A stretch of 64,000 bases of DNA. It comes from Methylobacterium aquaticum. Lineage in GTDB: Bacteria > Pseudomonadota > Alphaproteobacteria > Rhizobiales > Beijerinckiaceae. The notes under the pieces were generated by a model. That model did not search any database. It was not told the DNA's origin and saw nothing but the letters and a program-made list of their open reading frames with translations. The stretch is taken from the NCBI RefSeq assembly GCF_016804325.1, contig NZ_CP043627.1, positions 416,001-480,000 of the forward strand. The letters are read 5' to 3'. The position numbers were made by a program, and so were the translations under genes. This document shows, one piece after another, positions 4,838-53,073 of the stretch; positions within the stretch are counted from its first letter, which is position 1, and each line of letters starts with the position of its first letter.

Positions 4838-5164
4838 TCAACGTTCGAGGGACTCGAGGTAGACGATGAGGGACTGCGCCTGGTCCGGGTCGAACCGGAA
4901 CTCGGGCATGCTCGGATGGCCGGTGCGGATGCCCTCGGTGAGGGCCTCCGCCAGATCCTCGACGGGATAGCGGGCGTACAGGTCCCGGAACGGCGGCGCG
5001 GCGGGGAGCGGGCTGACGCCCGAGCGCCCGACGGCGTGGCAGCGGGCGCAATGCGCGCGGGCCAGCGTCCGGCCCTGCTCGACCTGCCGGTCCCAGGCCC
5101 GGGCGGGGATCGACGGGGACAGGAGCGCGGCGGCGCCCGCCGCGAGGAGGAAGCGGGCGCGCAT
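4838..5164 (-). CDS. Small periplasmic cytochrome c
   Basis: 108 aa with a signal peptide (MRARFLLAAGAAALLS, cleavage near ARA-W) and one class I haem-binding site, CARCH at 39-43, with a later methionine in HPSMPEF that may be the sixth ligand. It is exported and probably passes single electrons in the periplasm. The ATG overlaps the stop of the upstream USP gene by one base (TGATG), and the next USP gene begins 16 bases on, so the three are co-transcribed. The electron donor and acceptor are not visible. Confidence 0.85.
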   Translation of the reverse strand: MRARFLLAAGAAALLSPSIPARAWDRQVEQGRTLARAHCARCHAVGRSGVSPLPAAPPFRDLYARYPVEDLAEALTEGIRTGHPSMPEFRFDPDQAQSLIVYLESLER

Positions 5165-6050: not shown

Positions 6051-6064
6051 TTGATGCACCTCAA
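6051..6064. promoter_or_regulatory. FixK/FNR-type site between USP operon and phosphoketolase
   Basis: TTGATGCACCTCAA fits TTGA-N6-TCAA. Its centre at 6057.5 would place class II start sites near 6099 (25 bases before the phosphoketolase ATG) and near 6016 (37 bases before the USP ATG). One site may serve both directions. Confidence 0.65.
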
Positions 6065-6123
6065 GGACGGGATCGCGCCCCGCCGGCAGGCTCGCCCGAG
6101 ATCTGCGGCATCGGGAGGCGGAC

Positions 6124-8732
6124 ATGCGGGAGACGAGCGCGGGCGCGGCGCGGCCCGGCGACGAACGAAACGACGGGACCGGCCTCGCCCAAGAGCACGG
6201 CCTCGCCTTCGTGCCCGGTCCGCTCGGGCCGCAAGGCTTGCGCGAGATCGACGCCTATTGGCGCGCCGCCAACTACCTGTCGGTCGGGCAGATCTACCTG
6301 ATGGATAACCAGCTGCTGCGCCGGACGCTGGCGCCCCAGCACGTCAAGCCGCGGCTCCTCGGGCATTGGGGCACCACGCCGGGATTGAACTTCATCTACG
6401 CCCACCTGAACCGGGTGATCCGCGAGCGCGACCTCGACATGATGGCGGTCTGGGGTCCCGGCCACGGCGCTCCCGGCCTCGTCGCGAATGCCTGGCTCGA
6501 GGGAACCTACGGCGAGATCTATCCGGACGTCTCGCGCGACGCCGACGGGATGGCGCGCCTGTTCCGGCAGTTCTCGTTCCCGGGCGGCATCCCGAGCCAC
6601 GCCTCGCCGGAGCTGCCGGGCTCGATCCACGAGGGCGGGGAACTCGGCTATGCGCTCGCTCACGCCTTCGGCGCCGCCCTCGACAATCCTGGCCTGACCG
6701 TCGCCTGCGTCATCGGCGACGGCGAGGCGGAGACGGGCCCGCTCGCCGCCTCCTGGCACTCCAACAAGTTCCTCGATCCCCTGCGCGACGGCACGGTCCT
6801 GCCGATCCTGCACCTCAACGGCTACAAGATCGCCAACCCGACGCTGCTCGCCCGATTGGAACGGGACGAACTGGAGAGCCTGCTCGTCGGCTACGGCTAC
6901 GCTCCGGTCTTCGTCGAGGGGCAAGAATCCCCTCCCTTGCCCGGCCCGATGCACCAGGCGATGGCGGCCGCCCTCGACGGCGCGCTGGACGCCATCGCGG
7001 CGATCCGCGAGCGGGCGCGGCGCGGCGAGACGGAACGCCCACGCTGGCCGATGATCGTGCTGCAGAGCCCGAAGGGCTGGACCGGGCCGCGAACGGTCGA
7101 CGGCAAGCCGGTCGAGGGGACGTGGCGCGCGCATCAGGTCCCGGTCGCGTCGGTGCGCGAGAACCCGGAGCACCTCGCGATCCTGGAGGGCTGGATGCGC
7201 TCCTACCGTCCGGAGGAGCTGTTCACGGCCGACGGCGCGCTTGCCGCGGATCTCGCAGGACTGCCGCCGACGGGGAAGCGGCGCCTCTCGGCCAACCCGC
7301 ACGCCAACGGTCACGGGTCGCGGCCCCTGCGCCTGCCGGACCTGGCCCCCTCGCGGTCGAGGTGCCGGCGCCGGGCCGCGTGACGGCGGAGGCGACGCGC
7401 GCGCTCGGCGCCTACCTCCGCGAGATCCTGGTGCTGAACCGGGAGGCCGGCAACTTCCGCATCATGGGCCCCGACGAGACCGCCTCGAACCGCCTCGACG
7501 CGGTGTTTTCCGTCACGGGCCGCGCCTGGCAGGGCCCGATCCAGCCGGGCGACGATCACCTGAGCCGGGACGGCCGGGTGATGGAAGTCCTGAGCGAGCA
7601 TCTCTGTGAGGGCTGGCTCGAGGGCTACGTCCTGACCGGCCGCCACGGCCTGTTCGCGACCTACGAGGCCTTCGTGCACGTGGTCGATTCGATGGTGAAC
7701 CAGCACGCCAAGTGGCTCAAGGGGTCGCGCGCCCTGCCCTGGCGCCGGCCGGTGCCCTCGCTCAACATCCTGTTGTCGTCCCACGTCTGGCGCCAGGACC
7801 ACAACGGCTTCAGCCACCAGGATCCGGGCTTCATCGACTTCCTCGCCAACAAGCGCGGCGACACCGCCCGCATCTACCTGCCGCCGGACGCCAACACCCT
7901 GCTCTGCGTCATGGACCATTGCCTGCGCACGCACGACCGCATCAACGTGGTGGTGGCCGGCAAGCAGCCGGCCCCGCAATGGCTCGACCTCGAGGCGGCG
8001 GCGGCCCATTGCGCGGCGGGCGCCGGGATCTGGGGGTGGGCCTCGAACGAGGGCGAGGTCGAGCCCGACGTGGTGATGGCCTGCGCCGGCGACGTGCCGA
8101 CCCAGGAGACCCTGGCGGCGGTCGAGTGGCTGCGCCGGCACGTGCCGGATCTGCGCCTGCGCGTCGTCAACGTCGTCGACCTGATGACGCTGGCCTCGCC
8201 CGAGATGCATCCGCACGGGCTGGACGACGCCACCTTCGACAGCCTGTTCACCCGCGACCGCCCGGTGATCTTCGCCTATCACGGCTATCCGTGGCTCATC
8301 CACCGGCTGACCTACCGGCGCAGGAACCACGACAGTCTCCACGTGCACGGCTTCATCGAGGAGGGCACCACGACGACGCCCTTCGACATGTGCGTGCTGA
8401 ACCGGCTCGACCGCTACCACCTCGCGCAGGCGGCCCTGCGCACCGTTCCGCGCCGCCTCGGCACCCGGGGCGACCATGCCGAGCAGGCCCTGCGGGACGC
8501 GCTCGCCGCCCACCACGCCCATGTCTGCCGGACCGGCGAGGACCTGCCGGAGATCCGCAACTGGGCCTGGCCCGAGCGGCATGGTTCGGCGCAGGTCGAT
8601 CCGCGCCGGGTCGAGGGCGACATCATGCAGGGGGATGGAGAGATCGGGGACCGGCATTCCGAAGCGACGGCGCCGGGCGGATCCGCCTTGGATGATGCGA
8701 TCGACGGGTGGACCGTAGCGCCGAAGGTGTAA
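6124..8732 (+). pseudogene. xfp: Phosphoketolase (xylulose-5-P/fructose-6-P), split by an apparent one-base frameshift
   Basis: Together the two frames encode about 869 aa of a complete phosphoketolase: HWGTTPG at 81, GPGHGAPG at 111 and the ThDP/Mg site [19 protein letters not shown] from 198, then the middle and C-terminal transketolase-like domains ([18 protein letters not shown], later NVVDLM and [11 protein letters not shown]). The enzyme splits xylulose-5-P or fructose-6-P with phosphate to acetyl-P. Frame 1 runs 6124-7383 and the rest is in another frame to 8732. The break is at a run of five C (7346-7350), where six C would restore a continuous reading frame. It may be a sequencing error. 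With AckA at 18879 it would form an ATP-yielding route. Confidence 0.8.
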
Positions 8733-8818
8733 GAACCTGCTCGATTGATCTCTATAAATATCAGATCCTATTCGACTTGCGAAAATTTAGCCGCAACGAC
8801 CTTTTCCCATCCCTCTCG

Positions 8819-8943
8819 CGACCTCATCCTGAGGTGCGACTGAAAGGAGCCTCGAAGGAGGGCTCCAGAAGTCTTCGCGATCCCTGGAACCCTCCTTCGA
8901 GGTCAGTCGATTTTCAATCGACTGACACCTCAGGATGAGGTCG
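8819..8943. repeat. Long palindromic repeat, family 1, copy 1 (complete)
   Basis: Terminal arms of 18 bases (CGACCTCATCCTGAGGTG at the left and its complement at 8926-8943) enclose a second pair, CCTCGAAGGAGGG against CCCTCCTTCGAGG, and a small hairpin with arms GTCAGTCGATT. The nested stems could fold into one cruciform or a branched RNA. Related copies are at 16145 (truncated) and 41793 (complete). Confidence 0.8.
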
Positions 8944-8986
8944 TGTGTGGGAGTAAGTGATTGAGTCAAGCAAACAGGATTTCAAA

Positions 8987-9038
8987 CCCACCGCGTCATT
9001 CCGGGCTCCGCTGCGCGGCCCTGGAATGACGCGGTGGG
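8987..9038. repeat. Palindromic repeat, family 2, copy 1
   Basis: Perfect 16-base arms CCCACCGCGTCATTCC and their complement flank a 20-base GC-rich loop. The core GTCATTCCGGG corresponds to GTCATCCCGGG in copies at 37968 and 42898. Confidence 0.75.
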
Positions 9039-9226
9039 TACGAGTACTGTTGATCAGGTCAAACGGGCTTTGTGAGGCTGAGGTGGCACCGCGGATCGAC
9101 GCCGGGCAGACTCGAACGACGAGCCGCGCGCTCGAACCGGAGCGCACAGGCCCGCCTGATCCGTATGGCGGCGGAGCCCAAAAGCCGTGATGGGTCGCAG
9201 GTCCGGCGACGGGGAACGCCGGACGG

Positions 9227-9703
9227 TTACGGTTCCCGGTCCGGCACTACCTCGCTCACGTAGGCGACCATGAAGGTGCGAAAATCCCCGCCGCCGGCGT
9301 CGCGGATCGAGACGTACTCGCCGACCACGAAGGCGTGCGTCCCAAGGCGGTAGCCTGCCTCGTCGTCGTCCGTCGTGCGGTCGTCGTAGTCGATGAGCCA
9401 GGTCGCCCCGCCCTCCCCGCCCGCCCGATGGACGAGCCGGCCGTGGCGGTCCGGCTCGCCGGTCCAGAAGCGGCGGACGCGGCAATAGTCGCGAGTCTCG
9501 CGCCAGAGGGCGGCGTCGAGACGGCCGTCCGGCCCGAGCGGGGCGACGAAGTCGTAGCCGCGCCCGGCGCTGCCGTCGGGATGCCCGGGGCAGCGCGCCA
9601 GGGTCAGGGTCACACGGTGCAGCTCGGCCGACGCGCCTGGGTCGGAAGCGGTGGGGCCGGGGTCTTGCGCCCGCCTTCCGGGTGCGTGCGTTCCATGAGC
9701 CAT
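9227..9703 (-). CDS. Conserved hypothetical protein
   Basis: 158 aa, not recognised as a named family. The N-terminal 30 residues are low complexity (Pro/Ala/Asp). The rest is a compact beta-rich domain with motifs RDYCRVRRFW, HRAGG, TWLIDYDDRT and GEYVSIRD that look conserved and structured. No signal peptide or membrane segment. It starts 11 bases after the BON gene on the same strand, so the two are probably one transcript under the FixK-type site at 10015. Cytoplasmic; function unknown. Confidence 0.65.
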   Translation of the reverse strand: MAHGTHAPGRRAQDPGPTASDPGASAELHRVTLTLARCPGHPDGSAGRGYDFVAPLGPDGRLDAALWRETRDYCRVRRFWTGEPDRHGRLVHRAGGEGGATWLIDYDDRTTDDDEAGYRLGTHAFVVGEYVSIRDAGGGDFRTFMVAYVSEVVPDREP

Positions 9704-9713
9704 GATCGCCTCC

Positions 9714-9926
9714 TCAGGTCAGGGCGACGGTCCGGTCGTCGACGGCGCGGACGCCCGGGACCGACCAGGCCGCCCGCTCCGCCGCGACCTGCTCGGCGTC
9801 GCTGCCGACATGGCCGGTCAGGGTGACGACGCCCTCCGAGACGGCGACGCCGATCTCGGCCGCGTCGAGGCTGGGATCGAAGTCGAGTTTGTCGAGGACG
9901 TCGCGGCGCAGATCCTTGTCGGTCAT
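9714..9926 (-). CDS. BON-domain protein
   Basis: 70 aa consisting of one BON domain: an N-terminal helix (DLRRDVLDKLDFDPSLDA), two beta strands around VSEGVVTLTGHVGSDAEQ and a final helix-strand with PGVRAVDD. BON modules bind phospholipid or stabilise ligands; in OsmY-like proteins they are periplasmic, but no signal peptide is present here. The ATG at 9926 follows AGGAGCTTTGCG. It lies in a row of same-strand genes (regulator, zeta-like, BON, hypothetical). A second BON domain occurs in the CBS protein at 15337. Confidence 0.8.
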   Translation of the reverse strand: MTDKDLRRDVLDKLDFDPSLDAAEIGVAVSEGVVTLTGHVGSDAEQVAAERAAWSVPGVRAVDDRTVALT

Positions 9927-9999
9927 CGCAAAGCTCCTCTGGCATGGCTCCCGGGAGTTCGGCTGTGCTCGCCGGAGTTTCTTCGAGACCTTGGACGAG

Positions 10000-10344
10000 C
10001 TACGGGGACGAGCCTTGATCCAGCGCAAGGCCGACGCGGCTCTCCGCCCGGGCGAGCCCGGCGCAACGCTGCATCTCCCGGCGCAGCACGGAGACCGGCT
10101 CGTCACTCCCCGCCGCGGCGAGTTCCACGACCAGGCGCGCCAGGAGCGCCTCGTCGTCGAGGGGCACGGTCTGGGCAACGAAGGTATCGGTGAAGTGCGA
10201 AGCCGCGTCGGGGCCGAGCGCCATCCGCTCGCAGGCCCAGCGCGCCAGGAGCCGGTTGCGCCGGGCGCGCTCCTGGAAGCGCTTGTCTTCCTCGTGCGCG
10301 AACTGGCGCTCGAAGGCCTGCTCGCGTTCGTCGAACGTCGTCAT
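10000..10344 (-). CDS. DUF1476 protein, paralogue of the F1-ATPase zeta inhibitor subunit
   Basis: 114 aa. The N-terminus MTTFDEREQAFERQFAHEED followed by a run of R/K and RRNRLLARWACE is the hallmark of DUF1476, the alphaproteobacterial zeta subunit that blocks ATP hydrolysis by F1F0-ATPase in Paracoccus. The C-terminal helical part is present but diverged. The start was set at the ATG at 10344, where the conserved N-terminus begins; upstream codons do not resemble the family. It sits directly behind the FixK-like regulator (43 bases) and in front of the BON gene. A housekeeping copy would be expected elsewhere. Confidence 0.75.
   Translation of the reverse strand: MTTFDEREQAFERQFAHEEDKRFQERARRNRLLARWACERMALGPDAASHFTDTFVAQTVPLDDEALLARLVVELAAAGSDEPVSVLRREMQRCAGLARAESRVGLALDQGSSP
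10015..10028. promoter_or_regulatory. FixK/FNR-type site inside the 3' end of the zeta-like gene
   Basis: TTGATCCAGCGCAA has one mismatch to TTGA-N6-TCAA and is identical to the site at 17652. A start site 41.5 bases on would lie near 9980, 54 bases before the BON ATG. It overlaps the last codons of the upstream gene, which makes it less certain than the others. Confidence 0.4.
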
Positions 10345-10387
10345 GACGACCTCCCCTCTCATCTCATCCGTCTGATGGCTGCGCCGC

Positions 10388-11080
10388 TCAATCCTCGACG
10401 AGCCGGTGCATCCGGCCTCGGCGCAGGCTGACCTTGCGCCCACCGGTGCGCAGGAGTGCCCCCTCGGCTTCCAGCTGGGAGATCGTGCGTGACACGGTCT
10501 CGATGGTCAGCCCGAGGTAATCGGCGATGTCGCGGCGGGTCATCGGCAGGTCGAAGGTGCCGGTCCCACCCAGCCGCAGGTCGACGTCGAGCAGGAAGGC
10601 GGCGACGCGCTCCAGCGCCGAGCGCCGCCCGAGCAGCAGCATGTGGTCCTGGGCTTGGCGTAAGGAACGGCTCGTCAGGTTCCAGAGCTGGCAGGCGACC
10701 TCCGCGCGATGGGTGGCGATCCGCTCGACCTGGCGCCGCTTGAAGATCAGGACCCGGGTCCCGGACAGGGCCTCGGCGCTGTGCCGATGGGCCTCGCCCG
10801 GCTCGAAGCCGAACAGGTCGCCGGGCAGGTGGAAGCCGGTGATCTGGCGCCGGCCGTCGCTCAGGACCTTGTGGGTGCGGACCGCGCCCTGCATCACCCG
10901 GTAGACGCTCTCGGCCTCCTCGCCCTCGCCGAAGATCTCCTCCTCGCGGTCGTAGGCCGCAGGAGTGCCGATGAGTTCGGGGCAGGCGGCGAAGAGGCCG
11001 GGGCCGTCGCCGGCCGCCACCGGCGCGCGGGAGCCTGCGAACGGACGTGAGGCAGGAGGCAGGACCGTCTCTCGCGACAT
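10388..11080 (-). CDS. Crp/Fnr family regulator, FixK-like
   Basis: 230 aa: cyclic-nucleotide-type beta-roll (about 40-130), dimer helix, and a C-terminal winged helix with MTRRDIADYLGLTIETVSRT. The recognition helix ETVSR is that of FNR/FixK proteins and predicts binding to TTGA-N6-TCAA, the very motif found repeatedly around it. The N-terminal Cys cluster of FNR that holds an iron-sulphur centre is absent, so oxygen is probably not sensed directly; FixK proteins are instead controlled through FixLJ. A single-domain response regulator lies just upstream. No FixK-type site was seen in its own promoter. Confidence 0.85.
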   Translation of the reverse strand: MSRETVLPPASRPFAGSRAPVAAGDGPGLFAACPELIGTPAAYDREEEIFGEGEEAESVYRVMQGAVRTHKVLSDGRRQITGFHLPGDLFGFEPGEAHRHSAEALSGTRVLIFKRRQVERIATHRAEVACQLWNLTSRSLRQAQDHMLLLGRRSALERVAAFLLDVDLRLGGTGTFDLPMTRRDIADYLGLTIETVSRTISQLEAEGALLRTGGRKVSLRRGRMHRLVED

Positions 11081-11120
11081 CTTTTTCGCTCCTCATCGCG
11101 TGGAACGAGGGCGAGAGTGG

Positions 11121-11148
11121 CCGGACTATTGTCCTGAAGACAGTCCGG
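11121..11148. promoter_or_regulatory. Inverted repeat upstream of the FixK-like gene
   Basis: Arms CCGGACT (11121-11127) and AGTCCGG (11142-11148) separated by 14 bases, 41 bases before the regulator start. It could be an operator or an RNA hairpin in the leader. No factor can be assigned. Confidence 0.4.
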
Positions 11149-11155
11149 TCGGTCG

Positions 11156-11175
11156 CTTAAGCGGACTTGCTTAAG
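11156..11175. promoter_or_regulatory. Inverted repeat CTTAAGC-N6-GCTTAAG upstream of the FixK-like gene
   Basis: Perfect 7-base arms around a 6-base spacer, about 76 bases upstream of the regulator start and about 180 bases after the response regulator. Symmetry and position suggest an operator for a dimeric activator; the identity is unknown. Confidence 0.4.
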
Positions 11176-11357
11176 GGCTCTTACGGAGGCGCGAAGAGGC
11201 GCGGCCTCCGGCCGGAGCGGGGAAAGCGGGTCTCGCCCGCCCGGGCCCGCCCCGCGAAGAGCCGCAGCGCTGGCGAAATCCCGCGGCGGCCTGCCCGGCC
11301 GGGGCAGGCCGGGTACGAGGGCCGTTCGCGAACCGGGATCGCCACGACCGCTCGCGA

Positions 11358-11744
11358 TCACGTCGATCCTCGGGGGGCCGGTGCGGGACGACAGGCCGCG
11401 AGAAGGTCGACGAGCGCCTCGAAGGCGAGCGGCTTGTCGACGAGGGGCACGCCGGCCTCGCGCGCGCGGATGCGGATGCGCGGGTTGGGATGGCCGGTGA
11501 TCAGGATGACCGGAACGCGGGCATCGAGGTCGCGCAGGCGCCGACAGACCTCGAGCCCGTCCATCCCCGGCATCACGTGGTCGAGGAGCACGCAGAGCGG
11601 ACAGGGTCCCGGAAAGACCGAGAGGAGCTCGAACCCGCTGGCGAAGGTCTCGACGCGGTGCCCTTCGCTCTCGAACAGGAAGCGGGTCGAATGCAGGACA
11701 GCCGGGTCGTCGTCGACGACGTAAATGGGGGGAGCGCTCACCAT
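11358..11744 (-). CDS. Single-domain response regulator (FixJ-type receiver)
   Basis: 128 aa, receiver domain only. Acidic pair Asp11-Asp12 (VVDDD), phospho-acceptor Asp55 (LLDHVMPGMDGLE), Thr83 (ITGH) and Lys104 (DKPL) are all present, so it should be phosphorylated. There is no DNA-binding domain; receivers of this class act by protein contact or as phosphate sinks. It lies upstream of the FixK-like gene on the same strand with a 277-base gap, and has its own FixK-type site at 11813. The partner kinase is not in the window. Confidence 0.85.
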   Translation of the reverse strand: MVSAPPIYVVDDDPAVLHSTRFLFESEGHRVETFASGFELLSVFPGPCPLCVLLDHVMPGMDGLEVCRRLRDLDARVPVILITGHPNPRIRIRAREAGVPLVDKPLAFEALVDLLAACRPAPAPRGST

Positions 11745-11812
11745 GGGACCGGCCGTGTCGATCGAGGCGCGGATGCGAGATACGACCGTGGCTGGCCGCG
11801 TGGCTTCCCGCC

Positions 11813-11826
11813 TTGACCTGCCTCAA
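11813..11826. promoter_or_regulatory. FixK/FNR-type site for the response regulator
   Basis: TTGACCTGCCTCAA is a full TTGA-N6-TCAA match. The centre at 11819.5 would give a start near 11778, 34 bases before the response regulator ATG at 11744. Confidence 0.6.
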
Positions 11827-11991
11827 GCGGGTCAGGCGAGGCCGGCCAGGACCGACCGGCGCATCAGGTCCTGGAGGGTGGGGGCCTGCGTCCCGGCCAT
11901 CAGCGTCGCCCGGCAGATTTCCACGGTCCGGGATCCGGGCCGGCGCTCGTCGTTCGGTCTCGACCAATTGCTCGACGGGGTGTGAGCCCGC

Positions 11992-12005
11992 TTGAGCTGG
12001 ATCAA
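11992..12005. promoter_or_regulatory. FixK/FNR-type site for the USP at 12063
   Basis: TTGAGCTGGATCAA is a full TTGA-N6-TCAA match. The centre at 11998.5 predicts a start near 12040, 23 bases before the ATG at 12063. Confidence 0.65.
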
Positions 12006-12062
12006 GGCCGCCCGTTCCCGGCAGGGCGAACCATGGCGTCGAGCCCAGCCCGGAGACGATCC

Positions 12063-12923
12063 ATGTCGATGCCCGCTCCCTCCCCGCTCGCCGCCTTCCG
12101 CGACATCCTCGTCGGCACCATCGTGGAGGACGAGCGCGACCGGGTCTCCCCGGCCGTCGGGTACGGGCTCTCGCTGGCGGAGGCGGCGGGCGCCCACGTG
12201 ACGATCCTGTCGTCCTCGTGGTGCCTCGTCGGAACCGACGCCTGGCTCCAGGGGACCGCCGACCCGGGCATCGGGGTCGTCGACCGCCGCCTCGACGCCC
12301 TGGCCCGGGCCTATGCCGAGAACGCGGCCGGCGCGGCGGCGCAGGCGGGCCTCGTCTGCACCTGGGAGACGCCGCGCCTGCCCTATCCCGAGGTGGTCCA
12401 CCGGCTGGCGGCCGAGGCGCGGCTGCACGACCTGACGGTCCTCGACCTCGGTCCGCGCGGCGAGATTCTCTCGCGCGAGACGGTCGAGGCGGCGCTGATC
12501 GGCAGCGGCCGGCCGGTTCTCGCCGTGCCGCGCTCGCACCCGGCCTTCGCCGGGCAGCGGATCCTCGTGGCCTGGGACGGCAGCCTGCAGGCGGCCCGCG
12601 CTGCCAACGACGCCCTGCCGCTCCTGCGCGCCGCGGACGCGGTCGAGATCGTCTCGGTCGGCGACGCGGACGACCTGCTGACCTCGGTGCCGGGGGCCGA
12701 GTTCGCCCGCCACCTCGCGCGGCACGGCGCCGCCGTCACGGTCAGCGACCTGCCGCAGAACGGCAGCATCGCCGACACGCTCCGCAGCCATGCCGGCCTG
12801 GTGCGGGCCGACCTGATGGTGATGGGAGCCTACCGGCATTCCCGCGCACGGGAATTCGTCTTCGGCGGCGTGACCCGCTCGCTCCTCATGGACGCGCCGG
12901 TCCCGCTGTTCCTCGCGCATTGA
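12063..12923 (+). CDS. Universal stress protein, two UspA domains
   Basis: 286 aa with tandem UspA domains (about 12-155 and 160-286). The second ends with VMGAYRHSREFVFGGVTRS-like residues (read AYRHSRAREFVFGGV), the nucleotide-binding end of the fold. The ATG at 12063 was chosen because it follows GGAGACGATCC and lies 23 bases after the start site predicted from the FixK-type box at 11992. It is followed after 16 bases by a small gene. The response regulator lies divergently upstream with its own box. Confidence 0.85.
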   Translation: MSMPAPSPLAAFRDILVGTIVEDERDRVSPAVGYGLSLAEAAGAHVTILSSSWCLVGTDAWLQGTADPGIGVVDRRLDALARAYAENAAGAAAQAGLVCTWETPRLPYPEVVHRLAAEARLHDLTVLDLGPRGEILSRETVEAALIGSGRPVLAVPRSHPAFAGQRILVAWDGSLQAARAANDALPLLRAADAVEIVSVGDADDLLTSVPGAEFARHLARHGAAVTVSDLPQNGSIADTLRSHAGLVRADLMVMGAYRHSRAREFVFGGVTRSLLMDAPVPLFLAH

Positions 12924-12939
12924 ACCAAGGAGGTTCGTC

Positions 12940-13149
12940 ATGATCCGGAAGCACCCGACCCCTGCGGCATCGGTCCGGACGGCGCGCCGGCGCAAGGCCA
13001 TTCGGCAGACGCTCAGGCCCGCCGTCGCACCGACGCGGTCGCCCCCCGAGGACGAGGCGCCGATCCCGCCGGTCGCGGCGGACGACCTCGCGCCGTTCGA
13101 CGAGAGCGACCTGCACGCCCTGAGATCCGGCTGGCACTTCGTGGAGTAA
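12940..13149 (+). CDS. Small hypothetical protein
   Basis: 69 aa, not recognised. The N-terminal half is rich in Arg/Lys and Pro (TARRRKAIRQTLRP), the C-terminal half is acidic (DDLAPFDESDLHALRSGW). It is supported mainly by an excellent ribosome binding site, AAGGAGG, 7 bases before the ATG and by its position 16 bases after the USP gene, which suggests co-transcription. No signal or membrane segment. Confidence 0.55.
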   Translation: MIRKHPTPAASVRTARRRKAIRQTLRPAVAPTRSPPEDEAPIPPVAADDLAPFDESDLHALRSGWHFVE

Positions 13150-13188
13150 CCCGCGATCGGGTCGCCAGCCTCGTCGCCGGGATCGGCA

Positions 13189-15159
13189 TCAGGCCGCCGG
13201 CAATCCGGGGCGAGAGCCACGATCGGGCCCCGCGAGGGCCCGCATGGCGTTCAGGATCACCGCGACGTCGATCGCCTCCTGCAAGAGCGCGCCCTGCACC
13301 GGCGTGAGCGCGCCGAGCGCCGCCGCGACCATCCCGGCAAGCGAGAGCCCGAGCCCGACGAGCACGCTCTGGAGCGCGATGGCGCGGGAGGCCTTCGCGA
13401 TGCGGATGGCCTCCGGCAGCGGCGCCAGGCTGTCGACGAGGAGGACCACGTCGGCGGCCTCCGCGGCGGCGGCGGCGCCCCGGGCGCCCAACGCCACGCC
13501 GAGATCCGCCGCCGCGAGTGCCGGCGCGTCGTTGATCCCGTCGCCGACCATCATCACCGGCCCGCGCCGCCGTTCCTCAAGGACGACCTTCGTCTTGTCC
13601 GCCGGGTCGAGATCGGCGGCGACCGCATCGATCGGCAGCCCCGCCGTGAGCGCCTCGGCGAGGTTACGCCGGTCCCCCGTCGCGAGCACCACCCGGGCGA
13701 TGCCGCATTCCCTCAAGGAGGCCAGGATGGCGGCCCCGTCGCGGCGCAGCGGATCGGCGAAGGACAGGATCGCCGCCGGCCGGCCGTCGACCGCCACCAG
13801 GATTGTGGCCGACGCGACCGGCCCGTCCACGTCCGATCCGGCGGGCGGAAAGGCGATCCCTTGCGCGCGCATCAGGCGCGGCCCGCCCGCGCCGACGCGA
13901 CGGCCCTCGACCAGCCCGGTCACGCCGTCGCCCGGAACCTCGGTCACCGCCGACGGCGAGGCGAGACTCAAGCCCTGCGCCTTCGCCTCCTCGACCAGGG
14001 CCCGGGCGATCGGGTGGGCCGAGGCCTGATCGAGGGAGGCCGCCAGCCGCAGGGCTTCCGCCTCGCCGAAGGGCGGCAGCGCCGCGACGGCCCTCAGGCG
14101 CGCCCGGCCGTGGGTCAGGGTGCCGGTCTTGTCGACCACCAGGATCTCCGCCCTGGCCATGGCTTCGAGCGCGCCCCCGCCCTTGACGAGGACCCCGCAC
14201 CGCGCCGCCCGCGACAGGCCCGAGACCAGGGCGACCGGCACCGCCAGGATCAGCGGGCAGGGTGTCGCCACCACCAGCACGGCCAGCGCCCGCACGGCAT
14301 CGCCCGACGCGGCCCAGGCCCCGCCGGCGAGGACGAGCGTGACGAGGAGGAAGACGATCGCGTAGCGGTCGGCGAGCCGCGCCATAGGGGCTTTCGCCGC
14401 CCGCGCCGCCTCGACGAGGCGCACGATGCCGGCATAGGTGCTCTCGTCCGCCCGCCGCTCGGCCACGAGCGTGAAGGCCTGGCCGACATTGAGGCTGCCG
14501 CTGAGCACCGCCGCGTTCGCCGCGAAGGCGGCGGGCAGCGATTCGCCGGTGAGGCTCGACAGGTCGAGGACGGCGCGGCCCGCGGCGACGCGCCCGTCGA
14601 CCGGCAGGACGTCGCCGGCCCGCACCAGGATGCGGTCGCCCGGGGCGAGATCCGCCAGGGGAACCTCCCGCATGCGAGGCGCGTCGGCGCCGTTCCCCTC
14701 CTCACGAAGGGCGGTGCGCGGCTGGCGCGCGATCAGCGCGGTCATCGCCCGGCTCGCCCGTCCGGCGACGTAGGCCTCCAGCGACTGGCCGCCGGCGAAC
14801 ATCAGCGCGATGACGGCACCGGCCAGGGGTTGCGACAGGGCGAGCGCCCCACCCATTGACAGGACGGCGACGAGGTCGAGCCCGACATCGCCCCGCGCCA
14901 GGCTCGTCGCCACCTGGACCAGCAGGAATGCGAGAACCGCCAGGGTGGCGAGGCTCCAGGCCAGGGCGGCGGCATCGGCGTGGCCGAGGGTTCGGGCCAC
15001 GAGACCGGCGCTCAAGCCGAGGAGCGGCAGCGCCACGAGCCCGGCCGGCAGGGCCGCCGCCCATGCGAGCGTGGGCCTCCTGGCAGGAGCGTCGCCGGTG
15101 GCCACCTTGTCGGTGTCAGCCTTGCCGACGGCTCCTCCTGTTGCGGGTGAGTGCTCCAT
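13189..15159 (-). CDS. P1B-type heavy-metal ATPase, P1B-5-like (TPCP/QExxD)
   Basis: 656 aa. Order: N-terminal membrane helices (about 30-125), actuator domain with TGES at 204, helices carrying TPCP (299-302) in place of CPC, phosphorylation site DKTGTLT with Asp343, SAHP in the nucleotide-binding part, GDGINDAPALA hinge, and C-terminal helices with QEAID (627-631). TPCP plus QExxD is the signature of P1B-5 ATPases such as Sinorhizobium Nia, linked to Fe/Ni export. The C-terminal haemerythrin domain of Nia and any N-terminal metal-binding domain are absent. The ATG at 15159 follows GGAGAGGA; a FixK-type site lies at 15221. Confidence 0.85.
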   Translation of the reverse strand: MEHSPATGGAVGKADTDKVATGDAPARRPTLAWAAALPAGLVALPLLGLSAGLVARTLGHADAAALAWSLATLAVLAFLLVQVATSLARGDVGLDLVAVLSMGGALALSQPLAGAVIALMFAGGQSLEAYVAGRASRAMTALIARQPRTALREEGNGADAPRMREVPLADLAPGDRILVRAGDVLPVDGRVAAGRAVLDLSSLTGESLPAAFAANAAVLSGSLNVGQAFTLVAERRADESTYAGIVRLVEAARAAKAPMARLADRYAIVFLLVTLVLAGGAWAASGDAVRALAVLVVATPCPLILAVPVALVSGLSRAARCGVLVKGGGALEAMARAEILVVDKTGTLTHGRARLRAVAALPPFGEAEALRLAASLDQASAHPIARALVEEAKAQGLSLASPSAVTEVPGDGVTGLVEGRRVGAGGPRLMRAQGIAFPPAGSDVDGPVASATILVAVDGRPAAILSFADPLRRDGAAILASLRECGIARVVLATGDRRNLAEALTAGLPIDAVAADLDPADKTKVVLEERRRGPVMMVGDGINDAPALAAADLGVALGARGAAAAAEAADVVLLVDSLAPLPEAIRIAKASRAIALQSVLVGLGLSLAGMVAAALGALTPVQGALLQEAIDVAVILNAMRALAGPDRGSRPGLPAA

Positions 15160-15220
15160 GGCCGTCCTCTCCTCCCTGGCTCTGCCCGTCCAGACACGCA
15201 CCGAAGACAGGAGCGGGGCC

Positions 15221-15234
15221 TTGCGCTGGATCAA
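15221..15234. promoter_or_regulatory. FixK/FNR-type site for the P1B ATPase
   Basis: Read towards the ATPase it is TTGATCCAGCGCAA, one mismatch from TTGA-N6-TCAA. The centre at 15227.5 predicts a start near 15186, 27 bases before the ATG at 15159. Confidence 0.55.
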
Positions 15235-15266
15235 GCGCGGGCCGGTGCGGCGGAGGCGATCGATCC

Positions 15267-15280
15267 TTGAGCAGGATCAA
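15267..15280. promoter_or_regulatory. FixK/FNR-type site for the CBS-BON gene
   Basis: TTGAGCAGGATCAA is a full match. A start 41.5 bases downstream of its centre lies near 15315, which excludes the in-frame ATGs at 15280 and 15313 and supports the ATG at 15337. Confidence 0.65.
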
Positions 15281-15336
15281 TGTCGGGCGACGCCATCGGA
15301 CGGAGGATCAGCATGACCGAACGGAGGGGGGATTCC

Positions 15337-16062
15337 ATGCTGGCACGCGACATCATGCACCGCGACGTCGTCACGGTGACGCCGGAGACGCCGCTGGGCG
15401 CGATCGCCCGGCTGCTGGTCAAGAGGCGGTTCGGCGCCGTGCCGGTCACGGACGAGACCGGGATCCTCGTGGGGATCGTGAGCGAGGCCGACCTGCTCCA
15501 CCGCGAGGAACTCGGCACCGAGCGGCGGCGCAACCGCTGGATCGACGCTTTCGCGTCGATTGAGACGCTCGCGAACGCCTATCGGAGCGCTCACGGCCAG
15601 CTCGCGCGCGACGTGATGGCCCGCTCCGTCGTGACTGCCAGCCCCGACGCCTCCCTCGCCGAGATCGTCGAAGTGATGGAGCGCCGGCGCATCCGCCGGG
15701 TCCCGATCGTCGAGGCCAAGCCCGACGGGAGCGAGCGACTCGTCGGGATCGTGACCCGCGGCGACCTCGTGCGGGCGCTCGCGACCCTGGTCCCGGCCTC
15801 CCCCGCCCCGACCACCGATCGGGCCCTCACCGACCGGCGCATCCGCGACATGCTGCTGGCCGAACTCGCCCGCCAGCCCTGGACCGACAAGGCCGAGGGC
15901 AACGTCACGGTGCTCGACGGCGTCGTCCATCTCTGGGGTCCCGTGACGAACGAGGCCGAGGCGAGGGCGCTGGTGACCGCGGCGGAGGGCATCCCGGGGG
16001 TCGTCGCGGTGCGCGATCACACCTTCGTCGCCTCCTGGGGCGCCGACCCGATCATGCTCTGA
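15337..16062 (+). CDS. CBS-domain pair plus BON domain protein
   Basis: 241 aa. Two CBS motifs (about 1-60 and 88-145; DIMHRDVVTVTPETPLGAIA and VMARSVVTASPDASLAEI) form a Bateman module that usually binds adenine nucleotides, followed by a C-terminal BON domain (about 165-235). The ATG at 15337 is preferred: GGAGGGGGGATTCC precedes it, the CBS fold begins at once, and the predicted transcription start is near 15315. The combination suggests a cytoplasmic energy-charge sensor. It is divergent from the metal ATPase, each with its own FixK-type site. Confidence 0.85.
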   Translation: MLARDIMHRDVVTVTPETPLGAIARLLVKRRFGAVPVTDETGILVGIVSEADLLHREELGTERRRNRWIDAFASIETLANAYRSAHGQLARDVMARSVVTASPDASLAEIVEVMERRRIRRVPIVEAKPDGSERLVGIVTRGDLVRALATLVPASPAPTTDRALTDRRIRDMLLAELARQPWTDKAEGNVTVLDGVVHLWGPVTNEAEARALVTAAEGIPGVVAVRDHTFVASWGADPIML

Positions 16063-16144
16063 CGCCCGCTCGAGAGCGTCACGATCGCGTTGCACACGGT
16101 CCGCGACAGGACGGCTCGTGTGCGGCTCCGGTGCTTCCCATCGG

Positions 16145-16228
16145 CGACCTCGTCCTGAGGTGCTGGCGATCGAAGATCGCATTCGACCGCGGGGAGCCTC
16201 GAAGGAGGGCTCCAGAAACCTCCGAGGG
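16145..16228. repeat. Long palindromic repeat, family 1, copy 2 (truncated)
   Basis: Left arm CGACCTCGTCCTGAGGTG followed by GAGCCTCGAAGGAGGGCTCC as in the other copies; the right half with its closing arm is missing. It lies between the CBS-BON and phasin-like genes. Confidence 0.7.
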
Positions 16229-16346
16229 CGTCAGCGCCTGACGTTTCCCCATGCGGCGGCGATGCGTCCACCCCGCCCGGCGTGACGGCCATTCTCGACG
16301 ATCACCCTGCCGCCACGGCAACATCGGATGCGAACAGGAGACGATC

Positions 16347-16664
16347 ATGACGTCCAGGACCACAGGCTCCGAGACACCGCCGGTCTCCGGCTTCGGCGAC
16401 ATGGCCGCGCTGCCGACCACGGAATCCAAGCTCTGGCGCAGCTTCGGCATCGACCTGCCGCTGCGGCTCGCCGCCGAGATCCTGACCTTCGGCAGCCGTC
16501 GCCTGCAGGCCCAGGCCGAGCACGTCGCGGCGCTCGGCCGCTGCGGCTCCCCCGCCGAGACGATCGAGCTCCAGACGGACTTCCTGATGAAGACCTTCAC
16601 CGACTACCAGCGCGAGGCGGATGCGCTCTCCCGCGATGTCGTCGACATCGCCGTGCCAGGGTGA
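16347..16664 (+). CDS. Phasin family protein
   Basis: 105 aa, mostly helical. The segment QAQAEHVAALGRCGSPAETI followed by ELQTDFLMK and DYQREADALS is the phasin pattern (helix with repeated A/E, then C-x-S/T-P-x-E). Phasins coat polyhydroxyalkanoate granules; small members near stress genes may have other roles. The start at 16347 follows AGGAGACGATC. No FixK-type site was seen before it. It sits inside the stress island between the CBS-BON gene and a USP gene. Confidence 0.7.
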   Translation: MTSRTTGSETPPVSGFGDMAALPTTESKLWRSFGIDLPLRLAAEILTFGSRRLQAQAEHVAALGRCGSPAETIELQTDFLMKTFTDYQREADALSRDVVDIAVPG

Positions 16665-16778
16665 GCATCGGCCTCACGCCGCCCTCGGCCCGGGATTCGG
16701 CCTGGGAACGGTCGGCAGGACGGGAGGGAGGCCACCGTCGCGATGAACCCACGTTGAGGTGCATCGAGGGCGCTTTCG

Positions 16779-17594
16779 TCAGCGCGACATCAGCACCGGG
16801 ACCGTCATCGAAGCGAGGATCGTCCGGCTGGTCCCGCCGAGGATCGCCTCGCGCAGCCGCGAATGGCCGTAGGCGCCCATCACCAGGAGATCGGCGCCGC
16901 GATCGGACACGTGCGAGAGCAGCGCCTCGCCCACCGGGACACCGCCGGGGATGACCTCGACCGTCGCCTCGATCCCGTGCCGGGCGAGATGGCGGATCGC
17001 ACGCCTGCGCGTCGCCTCCGGCACCGGCTCGTCGGTCACGCTGACGAGCTCGACCCGCGCCATACGGCGCAGGAGCGGCAGCGCGTCGCCGAGAGCGCGC
17101 GCCGCGGGCGCGCTGCCGTCCCAGGCGACGACCGCACAGGAGAATCGGGGCGGCGCCAGCTGGTTATACGGCACCATCAGCACCGGTCGCGCGCCCTGGA
17201 ACAGCAGGGTGTCGAGATAGGCGTCGGCCGGCTTGGGCGCGGCCTCGTCGGCCTGCTCGATCACCGCGAGGTCGCTCAGATGCACGAAGCCGGCGAGGCG
17301 CAACGGCGCGAGCGGCGCCGAGGTGCAGATCGCGCTCGTCTCGCACGGGATTCCGGCTTCCCGCGCCGCTTTGGCCACGGCCTCGACCGCCGCGGCGGCC
17401 TGCTCGCGGGCATCCTGCTCGGCGGCCACGACGAGGTCGTAGCGAATTTCCGATTGCGCGAAGGTCTGGAACGGCACGAGCGGCAGGACGCTCACAGCCG
17501 AGACGGTCGCCTCGAGCATCGCCGCGAGCGTGATCCCGTAGGGCGCGGCGCGCCGGCCCACCCCGTCGACGACGATCGTCAGATCCTTGATCAC
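16779..17594 (-). CDS. Universal stress protein, two UspA domains
   Basis: 271 aa from a GTG at 17594 (residues 1-8: M-I-K-D-L-T-I-V), preceded by GGGAGA. Tandem UspA domains (1-140, 150-271); the second ends LLVMGAYGHSRLREAILGGT. No ATG in frame lies near the fold start, and the FixK-type site at 17652 predicts a transcript start near 17617, 23 bases before the GTG. This is the fourth intact tandem USP in the island. It is divergent from the ABC membrane gene at 17781. Confidence 0.85.
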   Translation of the reverse strand: MIKDLTIVVDGVGRRAAPYGITLAAMLEATVSAVSVLPLVPFQTFAQSEIRYDLVVAAEQDAREQAAAAVEAVAKAAREAGIPCETSAICTSAPLAPLRLAGFVHLSDLAVIEQADEAAPKPADAYLDTLLFQGARPVLMVPYNQLAPPRFSCAVVAWDGSAPAARALGDALPLLRRMARVELVSVTDEPVPEATRRRAIRHLARHGIEATVEVIPGGVPVGEALLSHVSDRGADLLVMGAYGHSRLREAILGGTSRTILASMTVPVLMSR

Positions 17595-17651
17595 GGCCGG
17601 TCTCCCGCTGCGGGAACCCGGTGAGGATCCGCCCGACGGGGAGGCGCCACC

Positions 17652-17665
17652 TTGATCCAGCGCAA
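17652..17665. promoter_or_regulatory. FixK/FNR-type site for the USP at 17594
   Basis: TTGATCCAGCGCAA, one mismatch from TTGA-N6-TCAA and identical to the site at 10015. The centre at 17658.5 predicts a start near 17617 on the minus strand. Confidence 0.6.
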
Positions 17666-17681
17666 GCGGGCGCCGTGGGAC

Positions 17682-17695
17682 TTGACCCGCCTCAA
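17682..17695. promoter_or_regulatory. FixK/FNR-type site for the ABC membrane gene
   Basis: TTGACCCGCCTCAA is a full match. The centre at 17688.5 predicts a plus-strand start at about 17730, which coincides with an in-frame ATG and so favours the ATG at 17781. Confidence 0.6.
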
Positions 17696-17780
17696 GGCGG
17701 CAATGGACAGGTTGGGCTAGCGAACGCTGATGGGGGCGGCTCTCGTCGAGGATTCGCCCCCGCTCCCCAGGGGCGACGGC

Positions 17781-18818
17781 ATGCCGACGAGCCTGCACCC
17801 GGACACGGCCGACCTCGCCCGACCCCGCCGGCAGGACCCGCCCGAGGCCGCCGGCCCGGTCCCGCGCCGCGCCGCGCGAAATCACATGGCGCCTTCCCTC
17901 CTCGCCTTCATCTGGCGCGAGAGCGCGCTGGCGCAGGTCGGGCTGGCGCTGCTGGCGGTCGCGGTGTTCCTGGCCGGCCTCGCGCCCATCGAACTCCAGC
18001 GCCGCGCCGTGAGCTTGGCCACGGGCTTGGCCGTGCGCGGCGCCGATCCGCATCCGCTCCTCGGGCTCGCCCTGCTCTACATGCTGGCCGCTGCCGGCCT
18101 CGGCGGGCTCAAGCTGGCGCTCAATCTCGGCCGCGGCTTTGTCGGCGAGCGCGCCGTCCGGCGCCTGCGCGCCGCCATCATGGCCGATCTCCACGCCGCC
18201 TCCGGCCCGGAGCGGGGGATCGCGATCGCGATGGTGCTGGACGAGGCCGAGCCGGTCGGCAGCTTCGTCGGGGTGTGCCTGTCGGAGCCGCTGCTGCAGG
18301 CCGGCGTGCTCGTCTCCACCCTCGCCTACCTGGCGTTCCTCCATCCGCCGATGGCGCTGGTGACGCTCGCGGTGTTCTCGCCCCAGCTCGTCTTCGTGCC
18401 GCTGATGCAGCGGGCGATCAACCGCCGCGTCGCCGCCCGGGTCGGCCTCCTGCGCCGGATCAGCGGCGGACTGGTCGAGCGGCCGGCGGCGCTGCCGGGG
18501 CCGACGCCGGCGGAGCTGGACCGCCTGGGCGGCGTCTTCCGCCTGAACATGGGCATCTTCGGCTTCAAGTTCTCGATGAACGTCCTGATGAACCTGTCCT
18601 ACCACCTCGGCGTCGCCGGCATCCTGGCGGTCGGCGGCTACGCCGTCGCGGCGGGCGAGGCGGAGATCGGCACCGTGGTCGCCTTCGTGTCGGGGCTCGC
18701 CCACATGAACGACCCCTGGGGCGACCTCGTCGGCTGGTTCCGGGACGTGAGCGTGACGCGCACGAAGTACGACCTGATCGTCCGGGCGACGTCGGGTCCG
18801 GCCGCCGAACGGGCGTGA
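17781..18818 (+). CDS. ABC transporter transmembrane-domain protein without ATPase domain
   Basis: 345 aa. After a Pro/Arg-rich N-terminus of about 50 residues come at least four hydrophobic helices arranged as in type 1 ABC exporters (for example VGLALLAVAVFLAGL and HPLLGLALLYMLAAAGLGGL), and a C-terminal helix before NDPWGDLVGWFRD. No Walker A, signature or Walker B follows: the gene stops where the nucleotide-binding domain would start, and none is encoded downstream. An ATG at 17730 would add 17 residues but coincides with the predicted transcript start. It is followed by acetate kinase after 60 bases. Confidence 0.7.
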   Translation: MPTSLHPDTADLARPRRQDPPEAAGPVPRRAARNHMAPSLLAFIWRESALAQVGLALLAVAVFLAGLAPIELQRRAVSLATGLAVRGADPHPLLGLALLYMLAAAGLGGLKLALNLGRGFVGERAVRRLRAAIMADLHAASGPERGIAIAMVLDEAEPVGSFVGVCLSEPLLQAGVLVSTLAYLAFLHPPMALVTLAVFSPQLVFVPLMQRAINRRVAARVGLLRRISGGLVERPAALPGPTPAELDRLGGVFRLNMGIFGFKFSMNVLMNLSYHLGVAGILAVGGYAVAAGEAEIGTVVAFVSGLAHMNDPWGDLVGWFRDVSVTRTKYDLIVRATSGPAAERA

Positions 18819-18828
18819 TCTGGATCAA
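18815..18828. promoter_or_regulatory. FixK/FNR-type site for acetate kinase
   Basis: GTGATCTGGATCAA matches TTGAT-N4-ATCAA except for the first base. The centre at 18821.5 predicts a start near 18863, 16 bases before the ackA ATG. It overlaps the end of the preceding gene. Confidence 0.55.
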
Positions 18829-18878: not shown

Positions 18879-20051
18879 ATGACCGACGCGATCCTGGCGA
18901 TCAACGCCGGCTCCTCGAGCCTGAAATTCGCCCTCTACGCAGCGGAGTCGCTCGCTCTCCTGTGCCGCGGCGGGGTCTCGGGTCTCGGCGCGTCTCCCCG
19001 GCTCGAGATCTCCGGCCCCCTGGCGCTCACCGGCGCCCCGCCGACGGCCTGCGACCATGCCGGCGCCGTCGCCTGGCTCCTCGACGCGCTCCGGCGCGTG
19101 CCGGGCCTCGCCGTGCGGGCGGCGGGGCACCGGGTCGTGCATGGCGGACGGGACTTCTCGGCGCCGGTGCGGATCGACGACGCGGTTCTCGCCCGCCTCG
19201 ACCGGCTGGTGCCGCTCGCCCCGGGCCACCAGCCCCTCGCCCTCGCGGGACTCCGGGCGGTGGCGGAGGTCTGGCCGGGCCTGCCCCAGATCGCCTGCTT
19301 CGATACCGCCTTCCACCGCGGCCAGCCGCGCCTCGCCCAGCTCTTCCCGATCCCGCGGGCGCTCTCGGACGAGGGGCTTCTGCGCTACGGCTTCCACGGC
19401 CTGTCCTACGAGCACGTCGCCACGGTCCTGCCGGAGGTGGCGGGACCGCGGGCGGAGGGTCGGGTGATCGTCGCGCATCTCGGCCACGGCGCCAGCCTCT
19501 GCGCCCTGCGCAACCGGCGCAGCATCGCCTCGACGATGGGCCTGACCGCCCTCGACGGCTTGATGATGGGCACCCGGTCAGGGTCGGTCGATCCCGGCCT
19601 CGTGCTCCACCTGATCCGCGAGCGGGGCCTGTCGCCGGGCGCGGTGGCGGATCTCCTCACCACGCGCTCGGGGCTGCTCGGGGTCTCGGGCATCAGCGAC
19701 GACGTGCGGGTGCTGCAGGACTCCGACGATCCGCGGGCGGCGGAGGCCCTCGACCTCTTCGCCTATCGGGCGGTGCGCGAGGCCGGCTCCCTGGTGGCGG
19801 CGCTCGGCGGGCTCGACGCCCTGGTCTTCACCGCGGGCATCGGCGAGAACGCGCCGCGGATGCGGGCGGCGATCGCGTCCGGTCTCGCGGCGTTCGGCGT
19901 CGCGCTCGATCCGGCCCGCAACGCGGGCGGCGAGCGGTGCATCGGCAGGGCCGGATCGCGGGTCGCGGTCTACGTCGTGCCGGCGAACGAGGAACTGCCG
20001 ATCGCCCGGGCGGTGGTTCGCTGCCTCGCCGAGGCCGCCAGCCGGGGATAG
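18879..20051 (+). CDS. ackA: Acetate kinase
   Basis: 390 aa, full family length. N-terminal phosphate-binding INAGSSSLKF, then HRVVHGG, the substrate segment FDTAFH, FHGLSYEH, the adenosine loop HLGHGAS, and C-terminal FTAGIGEN. It converts acetyl-P plus ADP to acetate and ATP in the cytoplasm. No phosphotransacetylase gene is nearby; the acetyl-P source would be the phosphoketolase at 6124. The ATG at 18879 follows GGAGACCCGAC. A FixK-type site lies just upstream, so it can be expressed apart from the ABC gene. Confidence 0.93.
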   Translation: MTDAILAINAGSSSLKFALYAAESLALLCRGGVSGLGASPRLEISGPLALTGAPPTACDHAGAVAWLLDALRRVPGLAVRAAGHRVVHGGRDFSAPVRIDDAVLARLDRLVPLAPGHQPLALAGLRAVAEVWPGLPQIACFDTAFHRGQPRLAQLFPIPRALSDEGLLRYGFHGLSYEHVATVLPEVAGPRAEGRVIVAHLGHGASLCALRNRRSIASTMGLTALDGLMMGTRSGSVDPGLVLHLIRERGLSPGAVADLLTTRSGLLGVSGISDDVRVLQDSDDPRAAEALDLFAYRAVREAGSLVAALGGLDALVFTAGIGENAPRMRAAIASGLAAFGVALDPARNAGGERCIGRAGSRVAVYVVPANEELPIARAVVRCLAEAASRG

Positions 20052-52870: not shown

Positions 52871-52988
52871 CGTCAGGTTGTTCAAAGATTAATCTTAAAG
52901 CCCGCCGGACGAAAAATCCGTATTTCGATGGATTTGGTCCGAGAATATCATAACCAATCATCAACCATGATCGCTCATGCGCGCAGCG

Positions 52989-53017
52989 AAAAGGCCACGC
53001 CGGGGAGACGTGGCCTT
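52989..53017 (-). terminator. Terminator after flagellin 2
   Basis: Arms AAGGCCACG and CGTGGCCTT with a 9-base loop, then a T-run on the minus strand. The same GGCCACG stem follows flagellins 3 and 4. Confidence 0.8.
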
Positions 53018-53073
53018 GTGGTCTTTCGGGGAGCGGCGGCCGGAAGGCCGCCACCCGGTCTCGGAGGCCTGCC

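Follow-up and report, generated by a model that had tools for sequence, protein, structure and literature searches.

The window analyzed here is a stretch of 64 kb from Methylobacterium aquaticum (contig NZ_CP043627.1, called C1, positions 416001–480000; genome of 7,279,786 bases), and positions without prefix are counted from its first base. Between 3.9 and 20.1 kb it contains a compact island in which nine palindromic boxes of the FixK type surround the gene of a CRP/FNR regulator that we call FixK-A. The genes of the island follow each other in the order universal stress protein (USP), cytochrome c, USP, phosphoketolase, unknown gene, BON-domain protein, zeta inhibitor, CRP/FNR regulator, response regulator, USP, small protein, P1B ATPase, CBS-BON protein, phasin-like protein, USP, ABC-membrane-like protein and acetate kinase, and after the island come the genes for Lon, ClpX, ClpP and trigger factor.

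A preliminary description of the window had listed nine TTGA-N6-TCAA sites, and a motif search confirmed them at 6051, 10015, 11813, 11992, 15221, 15267, 17652, 17682 and 18815, five being perfect and four having one mismatch. Box 1 (TTGATGCACCTCAA, 6051–6064) is read in both directions and lies between the divergent genes uspA (5164–5979, minus strand) and phosphoketolase (6124–8732, plus strand). Box 2 (10015–10028, minus) is assigned to the BON gene (9714–9926, minus) and lies inside the 3′ coding end of the gene for a homologue of the F1-ATPase inhibitor subunit zeta (10000–10344, minus), a position which recurs in several relatives. Box 3 (11813–11826, minus) precedes the gene of a single-domain response regulator (11358–11744, minus) and possibly also serves fixK-A downstream (10388–11080, minus), and box 4 (11992–12005, plus) precedes uspB (12063–12923, plus). 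Boxes 5 (15221–15234, minus) and 6 (15267–15280, plus) are assigned to a heavy-metal P1B-type ATPase with a TPCPL motif (13189–15159, minus) and to a CBS-CBS-BON protein (15340–16062, plus), boxes 7 (17652–17665, minus) and 8 (17682–17695, plus) to uspC (16779–17594, minus) and the ABC-membrane-like gene (17781–18818, plus). The weakest site is box 9 (18815–18828, plus), which has a GTGA half, overlaps the stop codon of the preceding gene and is assigned to the acetate kinase gene ackA (18879–20051, plus).

With up to one mismatch allowed, all nine boxes also match CTTGA-N6-TCAAG, a longer 16-mer, so that the flanking C and G belong to the motif; among the matches listed (reaching to about 2.97 Mb, far past the window) no further site of this kind lies between the nine. 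The FixK2 box given in the available text on Bradyrhizobium is TTG(A/C)-N6-(T/G)CAA (PMC9104804). Eight of the nine island boxes are exact matches to this consensus; elsewhere in the 64-kb window it occurs once. Regarding the mismatch sites as degenerate boxes was rejected for three of the four, TTGATCCAGCGCAA and TTGCGCTGGATCAA both fitting the published consensus.

The enrichment that the preliminary description had expected was borne out by a genome-wide scan. Allowing up to one mismatch, the 16-mer occurs 198 times in the genome (154 times for the reversed-pattern control), and nine of these sites are found in the 12.8-kb island where 0.35 are expected (Poisson 1.5e-10); not one of 50,000 random placements reproduced the cluster. 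For the perfect 14-mer TTGA-N6-TCAA there are 31 sites versus 24 for the control; five of the 31 fall inside an 11.6-kb span of the island, and none of 200,000 random placements reproduced such a cluster. Six perfect 16-mers are present genome-wide, three of them in the island.

The distances between the boxes and the start codons are 57–95 bases, reproducing the leaders of 16–54 bases that had been claimed for a box centred at −41.5. For a closer look at the downstream sequence 92 box–gene pairs from related loci were oriented, of which 66 were kept once near-duplicates had been removed, and the box centre was set to −41.5; the −10 signal played no part in placing the boxes. In these 66 promoters G is found two bases past the box with a frequency of 0.96 (the adjoining C with 0.71), A at −11 with 0.80 and T at −7 with 0.57, the latter two where the −41.5 placement predicts the −10 element (binomial 3e-32). 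In a sigma-70 −10 element no bases are more conserved than these two. Weak signals are seen at −10 and +7, and the other downstream columns are near background. The G two bases past the box (G16) is also part of the FnrN/FixK consensus TTGANCNNGATCAANG in the accessible part of PMC4999443.

Within the window A-11 is present in nine, T-7 in five and G16 in all of the ten gene-directed readings, box 1 having all three bases both ways. A-11 and G16 together, the composite signature, occur in 9/10 gene-directed readings versus 0/8 readings pointing away from gene starts. Counted per box, eight of nine island boxes carry it versus one of 14 perfect boxes outside (Fisher 1.6e-4), and of the 34 matches to the composite pattern in the genome (46 for the control) eight lie in the island. 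The perfect boxes outside the island were considered as a wider regulon and rejected, the signature being found once among the 28 readings of those 14 sites (out of 26) that were fetched. The −10 signal at its predicted place is in line with a putative transcription start about 41 bases from the box, and together with the statistics and the conservation described below it speaks for the placement and the start codons chosen earlier.

We then compared 40 regulator-centred stretches (L-numbers), 39 from other genomes, a few of which are represented twice, and one from a second FixK locus of the source genome (L133); 13 of the 40 (L117–L127, L132 and L133) surround homologues less than 60% identical. 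Together they contain 118 perfect 14-mer boxes versus three for the reversed control, and five of the 40 have none. For the number of boxes per gene we used 46 loci, some of them neighbours that overlap slightly in four genomes, and searched for the 16-mer (up to one mismatch) within 250 bases. The gene order is shuffled among the relatives, yet the boxes keep the same genes and distances: a box precedes the response regulator gene in 22/23 cases, uspB in 23/32, uspA in 15/26, the P1B ATPase gene in 5/6, the CBS-BON gene in 5/5, uspC and the ABC-like gene each in 4/4, phosphoketolase in 5/8, BON in 11/28 and zeta in 4/11, the USP and BON counts including paralogues. At the lower end are ackA and the USP gene at 3961 (each 1/8) and fixK itself (1/37). 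In the same loci no box was found ahead of cytochrome c (0/11), the gene at 9227 (0/10), phasin (0/4) and the small gene (0/7), and the control motif preceded none of the genes tested. The distance from box to start codon is narrow, being 57–64 bases in 19 of 23 cases for uspB, 67–69 for the P1B ATPase gene and 70–78 for uspA. In L104, L105, L109 and L112 ackA follows directly after phosphoketolase.

In a survey of the genus 49 of 111 genomes had a match to FixK-A at E≤1e-40; by our own tally the best match was at least 68% identical in 37 of them and a more distant homologue in 12. Perfect 16-mers number on average 7.84 per genome in the 37 orthologue genomes, 5.33 in the 12 with a distant homologue and 3.23 in the 62 without match. 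The control counts are 6.38, 6.00 and 4.56, the control thus being also higher in the orthologue genomes, so that the difference across the genus is partly background; box minus control still separates the orthologue genomes from those without match (p=1.2e-4).

FixK-A has 230 amino acids with the CRP/FNR domains and an E--SR recognition helix. The ETVSR sequence that had been noticed in a FixK-like protein in the middle of the island starts at residue 194, and the nearest relative of known structure is indeed Bradyrhizobium FixK2 (4i2o, 216 bits; next structure 94 bits). The best match among the NCBIfam models is FixK, a model named for Caulobacter. An FNR-type cysteine cluster is absent, Cys33 and Cys130 being the only cysteines. 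At the position of the redox-sensitive Cys183 of FixK2, FixK-A has Thr in the alignment to 4i2o, where the solved chain has Ser; according to the available text this cysteine was exchanged for Ser in the solved FixK2 (PMC9104804). The ratio of nonsynonymous to synonymous substitution rates (dN/dS) of fixK-A versus its nearest relative is 0.11, a value which cannot be assigned to the time since fixLJ was lost (see below). No box stands directly upstream of fixK-A, the nearest being the one at 11813 ahead of the response regulator gene. On the minus strand nothing terminator-like turned up in a scan from 9000 to 12100, which allows, without showing, read-through from the response regulator gene into fixK-A. 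The leader of fixK-A (11080–11170, minus) contains an inverted repeat, CCGGACTGTC...GACAATAGTCCGG, which in the nearest relative reads CCGGAATGTC...GACAATATTCCGG with matched changes in both arms.

The usual order in the relatives is fixL, fixJ, box, response regulator, sometimes an extra CRP gene, and fixK, and the response regulator gene of the window occupies the place that it has in them between fixJ and fixK. In the nearest relative fetched (L148, fixK 96% identical) fixL and fixJ are followed by genes for MucR, a methyltransferase, aquaporin, MscS, DUF308, alkyl sulfatase and patatin-like proteins before uspB. At the corresponding place in the window we find the last 34 residues of FixJ (11835–11936, minus, 71% match) joined to the C-terminal end of the patatin-like phospholipase (11921–11985, plus). 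The junction lies at about 11921–11930, the two alignments overlapping by 7–10 bases. Two genes truncated at one junction point to a deletion in this lineage, which amounts to 12.66 kb relative to L148, a comparison that does not fix the ancestral length. In 24 of the 29 orthologue loci fixJ is present within the fetched stretch. Relocation of fixLJ to another place was rejected: a 12.8-kb query from L148 matched only the flanks of the junction, short partial stretches of at most 363 bases and a 71% identical paralogous fixLJ at C1:380744–382842.

The region upstream of fixK-A also differs from that of the relatives. In the orthologues fixK is preceded, at a distance of about 107 bases, by CTACGTAGTTGCCCTTAAGC-like sites; 26 of 29 also have a CGGAATTT-like element (at most one mismatch to CSNAATWT), nearly always 21 bases after the first site. 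These elements match the published FixJ elements GTACGTAG of R. palustris (available text of PMC13327599) and CSNAATWT (PMC4999443, seen in part). The window has CTCCGTAAGAGCCCTTAAGC and CGGACTGT at these places; its FixJ-type operator (11169–11188, minus) is off the consensus of the relatives at four of 20 positions, and the genome has no match to TACGTANTTNNCCTTA even when one mismatch is allowed. Among the 29 orthologue promoters the five loci without fixJ in the fetched stretch have 4–6 mismatches to the FixJ-site consensus versus 0–5 (median 2) in the 24 loci with fixJ there (Mann-Whitney p=0.002), a trend resting on five versus 24 loci and on a consensus drawn from the same loci. The promoter thus departs from the consensus of its relatives, which says nothing firm on loss of function.

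The paralogous pair, fixLJ-B, could supply the input. FixL-B keeps the PAS-kinase architecture and an RHDAY stretch, whose His we take to be the haem ligand. Its nearest named relatives are from M. variabile and M. ajmalii (85–86%), where they adjoin another fixK whose product is 46–53% identical to FixK-A. In the window's genome the second regulator, FixK-B, is encoded at C1:4.94 Mb (L133) and keeps the E--SR helix. Its gene is preceded by an exact CTAAGGGA-N2-TCCCTTA (the CTAAGGGAAATCCCTTA site), which ahead of the FixLJ-B-linked fixK genes is exact in L163 and deviates by one base in L167; L157 and L158 have looser versions, and in L159, L165, L174, L189 and L192 the site is partial or different. 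Around FixK-B no 16-mer box with at most one mismatch was found within 20 kb; one box of the published consensus, TTGATCCAGCGCAA, is located nearby ahead of a CBS-like gene. Upstream of FixK-B, by eye, there is an apparent degraded remnant of a response regulator gene. A drift of the fixK-A operator towards the FixJ-B operator was considered and rejected as a poor fit, 5/11 left-half positions agreeing by eye versus 7/11 for the old operator.

Having assembled these data we consider it very probable that the island is a compact FixK2-type regulon in which a dimer of FixK-A or FixK-B acts as class-II activator, and that the input may have been rewired after loss of the local fixLJ. We infer that the dimer of FixK-A, or of FixK-B with its conserved contact residues, would bind the CTTGA-N6-TCAAG boxes 41.5 bases before the transcription start, replacing the −35 element, above a weak −10 with A at −11 and T at −7. 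The predicted targets would be the USPs, the phosphoketolase–acetate kinase route to ATP, the BON and CBS-BON proteins, the metal ATPase and the response regulator. In the relatives the genes for the FixL oxygen sensor and for FixJ, its partner, lie beside fixK-A, and the pair would act through the FixJ-type site ahead of fixK. In the window's genome FixK-A would most likely be fed by read-through from the box-driven response regulator promoter, by the branch from FixLJ-B to FixK-B, or by both. The preliminary description had seen here an oxygen-limitation survival island. As to this claim the FixK regulon stands, and control by oxygen does not stand to the same degree: FixK itself is described as not oxygen-sensing (available text of PMC13327599) and the local FixLJ is deleted, which makes the oxygen-limitation step weaker in this genome, where FixLJ-B with the second FixK could take over such control.

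Several observations weigh against this interpretation. FixK-A stays below the cut-off of the NCBIfam FixK equivalog (232.9 versus 300 bits). Perfect 16-mers are genome-wide not above the control (6 versus 7), and hence the regulon signal is local. The promoter of the P1B ATPase gene (box 15221) is the sole gene-directed reading of the window that lacks A-11, and ackA has its box in one of eight cases. To these add the higher control counts in the orthologue genomes and the small set of fixJ-less loci, one of them (L129) being a duplicate locus whose counterpart in the same genome (L105) retains fixJ. Moreover, L130 and L134 keep fixJ yet show similar changes in the CSNAATWT element, and Xanthobacter L192, with a fixK near FixLJ, has CTCCGTAAAACTACTTAAGG with the CTCCGTAA start as in the window, so the fixK-A promoter may still work.

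The strongest competing explanation, which we regard as possible but on balance unlikely, is that the boxes are real CRP/FNR sites whose main regulator is FixK-B or an FnrN-type protein, FixK-A being vestigial after the loss of FixLJ. The genome has 14 matches above the HTH_Crp_2 cut-off, FixK-B keeps its recognition helix and its gene has the intact CTAAGGGA-N2-TCCCTTA that is exact or nearly so ahead of some FixLJ-B-linked fixK genes, and FixLJ-A is gone with the fixK-A promoter off consensus. On the other hand fixK-A is undamaged and, with a dN/dS of 0.11, conserved, clusters of boxes surround its orthologues in rearranged genomes, and the surroundings of FixK-B have no 16-mer box in 20 kb, though one of the published consensus. 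A related proposal, which we put forward tentatively and with some doubt, is an exchange of the sensor: the island would have lost its own sensor pair, and FixLJ-B acting on FixK-B through a different FixJ operator would have taken over the whole target set by way of the shared box, FixK-A being retained as amplifier with its supply from the box-driven response regulator promoter. That the island is decaying and the boxes are relics of a regulon unselected since the fixLJ deletion seems improbable to us. The fixJ and patatin scars, the changed FixJ-type promoter of fixK-A, a broken phosphoketolase frame and a split USP remnant (20586–21099, minus, in two pieces) would fit decay; but the other frames tested are open with dN/dS of 0.11–0.56 versus the relatives, the boxes remain intact, as do most −10 bases, and the broken frame may stem from an error of sequencing. 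Since the deletion is perhaps recent, dN/dS cannot decide on decay. A chance cluster of palindromes in GC-rich DNA, which the moderate genome-wide excess over the control (198 versus 154) might suggest, is refuted by the random placements, the conservation across genomes and the −10 signal and has a negligible probability.

The FixK2-type regulon is a known kind, and phosphoketolase–acetate kinase and USP targets are documented for it. In the part of the Bradyrhizobium work available (PMC9104804) the phosphoketolase–acetate kinase genes bll2518–bll2517 are about tenfold down without FixK2, a USP gene is FixK2-dependent and blr1289 bears the same TTGATCCAGCGCAA box; microoxia-responsive genes include a response regulator gene by fixK2, a CBS protein and USPs (PMC6515984, seen in part). 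These targets were likened to those of the window by annotation. The FixK regulon predicted by Dufour et al. includes phosphoketolase, a CBS protein, cytochrome c, FixJ and FixL, and Methylobacterium is named there in a Rhizobiales group with a well-conserved predicted regulon (PMC2908626, in the portion available). The window thus resembles the FixLJ–FixK2 system of B. diazoefficiens and the FixK regulon of R. palustris in the regulator sequence, the TTG(A/C)-N6-(T/G)CAA box and the types of targets. It differs from both in the deletion of fixLJ beside fixK, the off-consensus FixJ-type operator, the Thr at the place of Cys183, the concentration of boxes in one 13-kb island and the absence of a cbb3 oxidase catalytic subunit among the island proteins examined by domain scans. 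In R. palustris, as far as the available text goes, fixK transcription drops drastically without fixLJ (PMC13327599). Control of fixK without FixJ is described, in the accessible part of PMC4999443, for hFixL–FxkR–FixK of Rhizobium etli and R. leguminosarum; unlike these, the genome of the window has a paralogous FixLJ. The low-oxygen-activated (lxa) locus of Burkholderia cenocepacia is similar in its clustered USPs, BON protein and cytochrome c and is tied to persistence in limited oxygen; unlike the window it is a betaproteobacterial cluster of 50 genes, and the likeness is one of description (PMC6127331, seen in part).

What is unusual here is the loss of the neighbouring sensor, documented by its scars, while targets, boxes and regulator stayed. 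The promoter rules of a FixK regulon in Methylobacterium, that is box, spacing and −10 bases, become explicit, and it becomes testable how a regulatory network evolves when a regulon survives the loss of its input while another, paralogous input shares its output box. Literature searches, mostly without subscription papers, gave no study devoted to this island or to FixK in Methylobacterium.

Some features of the island genes deserve mention. The phosphoketolase frame is not intact in this assembly but broken near 7340–7362, which could be a sequencing error or a real mutation. Both parts match their Pfam domains strongly, relatives such as L097 have them in a single frame, and no second copy was found in the genome. 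The product of the gene at 17781–18818 had been called an ABC half; it has no match to an ATPase domain and a match to ABC_membrane (E 8e-4) below the Pfam cut-off. Next after uspA on the same strand is a small cytochrome c gene (4841–5164, minus), whose product matches the cytochrome_CBB3 model, followed on this strand by a further USP gene (3961–4821, minus).

By eye, dispersed repeat-like stretches with CCTCATCCTGAGGTG-type palindromes are present at 8820–8960 and 16145–16225, with a similar one at 12540–12600 of L133; a repeat search at 40 bases gave no repeat within the two stretches of the window. Far downstream of the island, near motA, four flagellin genes are arranged in tandem with a period of about 1.9 kb (50757–58349, minus).

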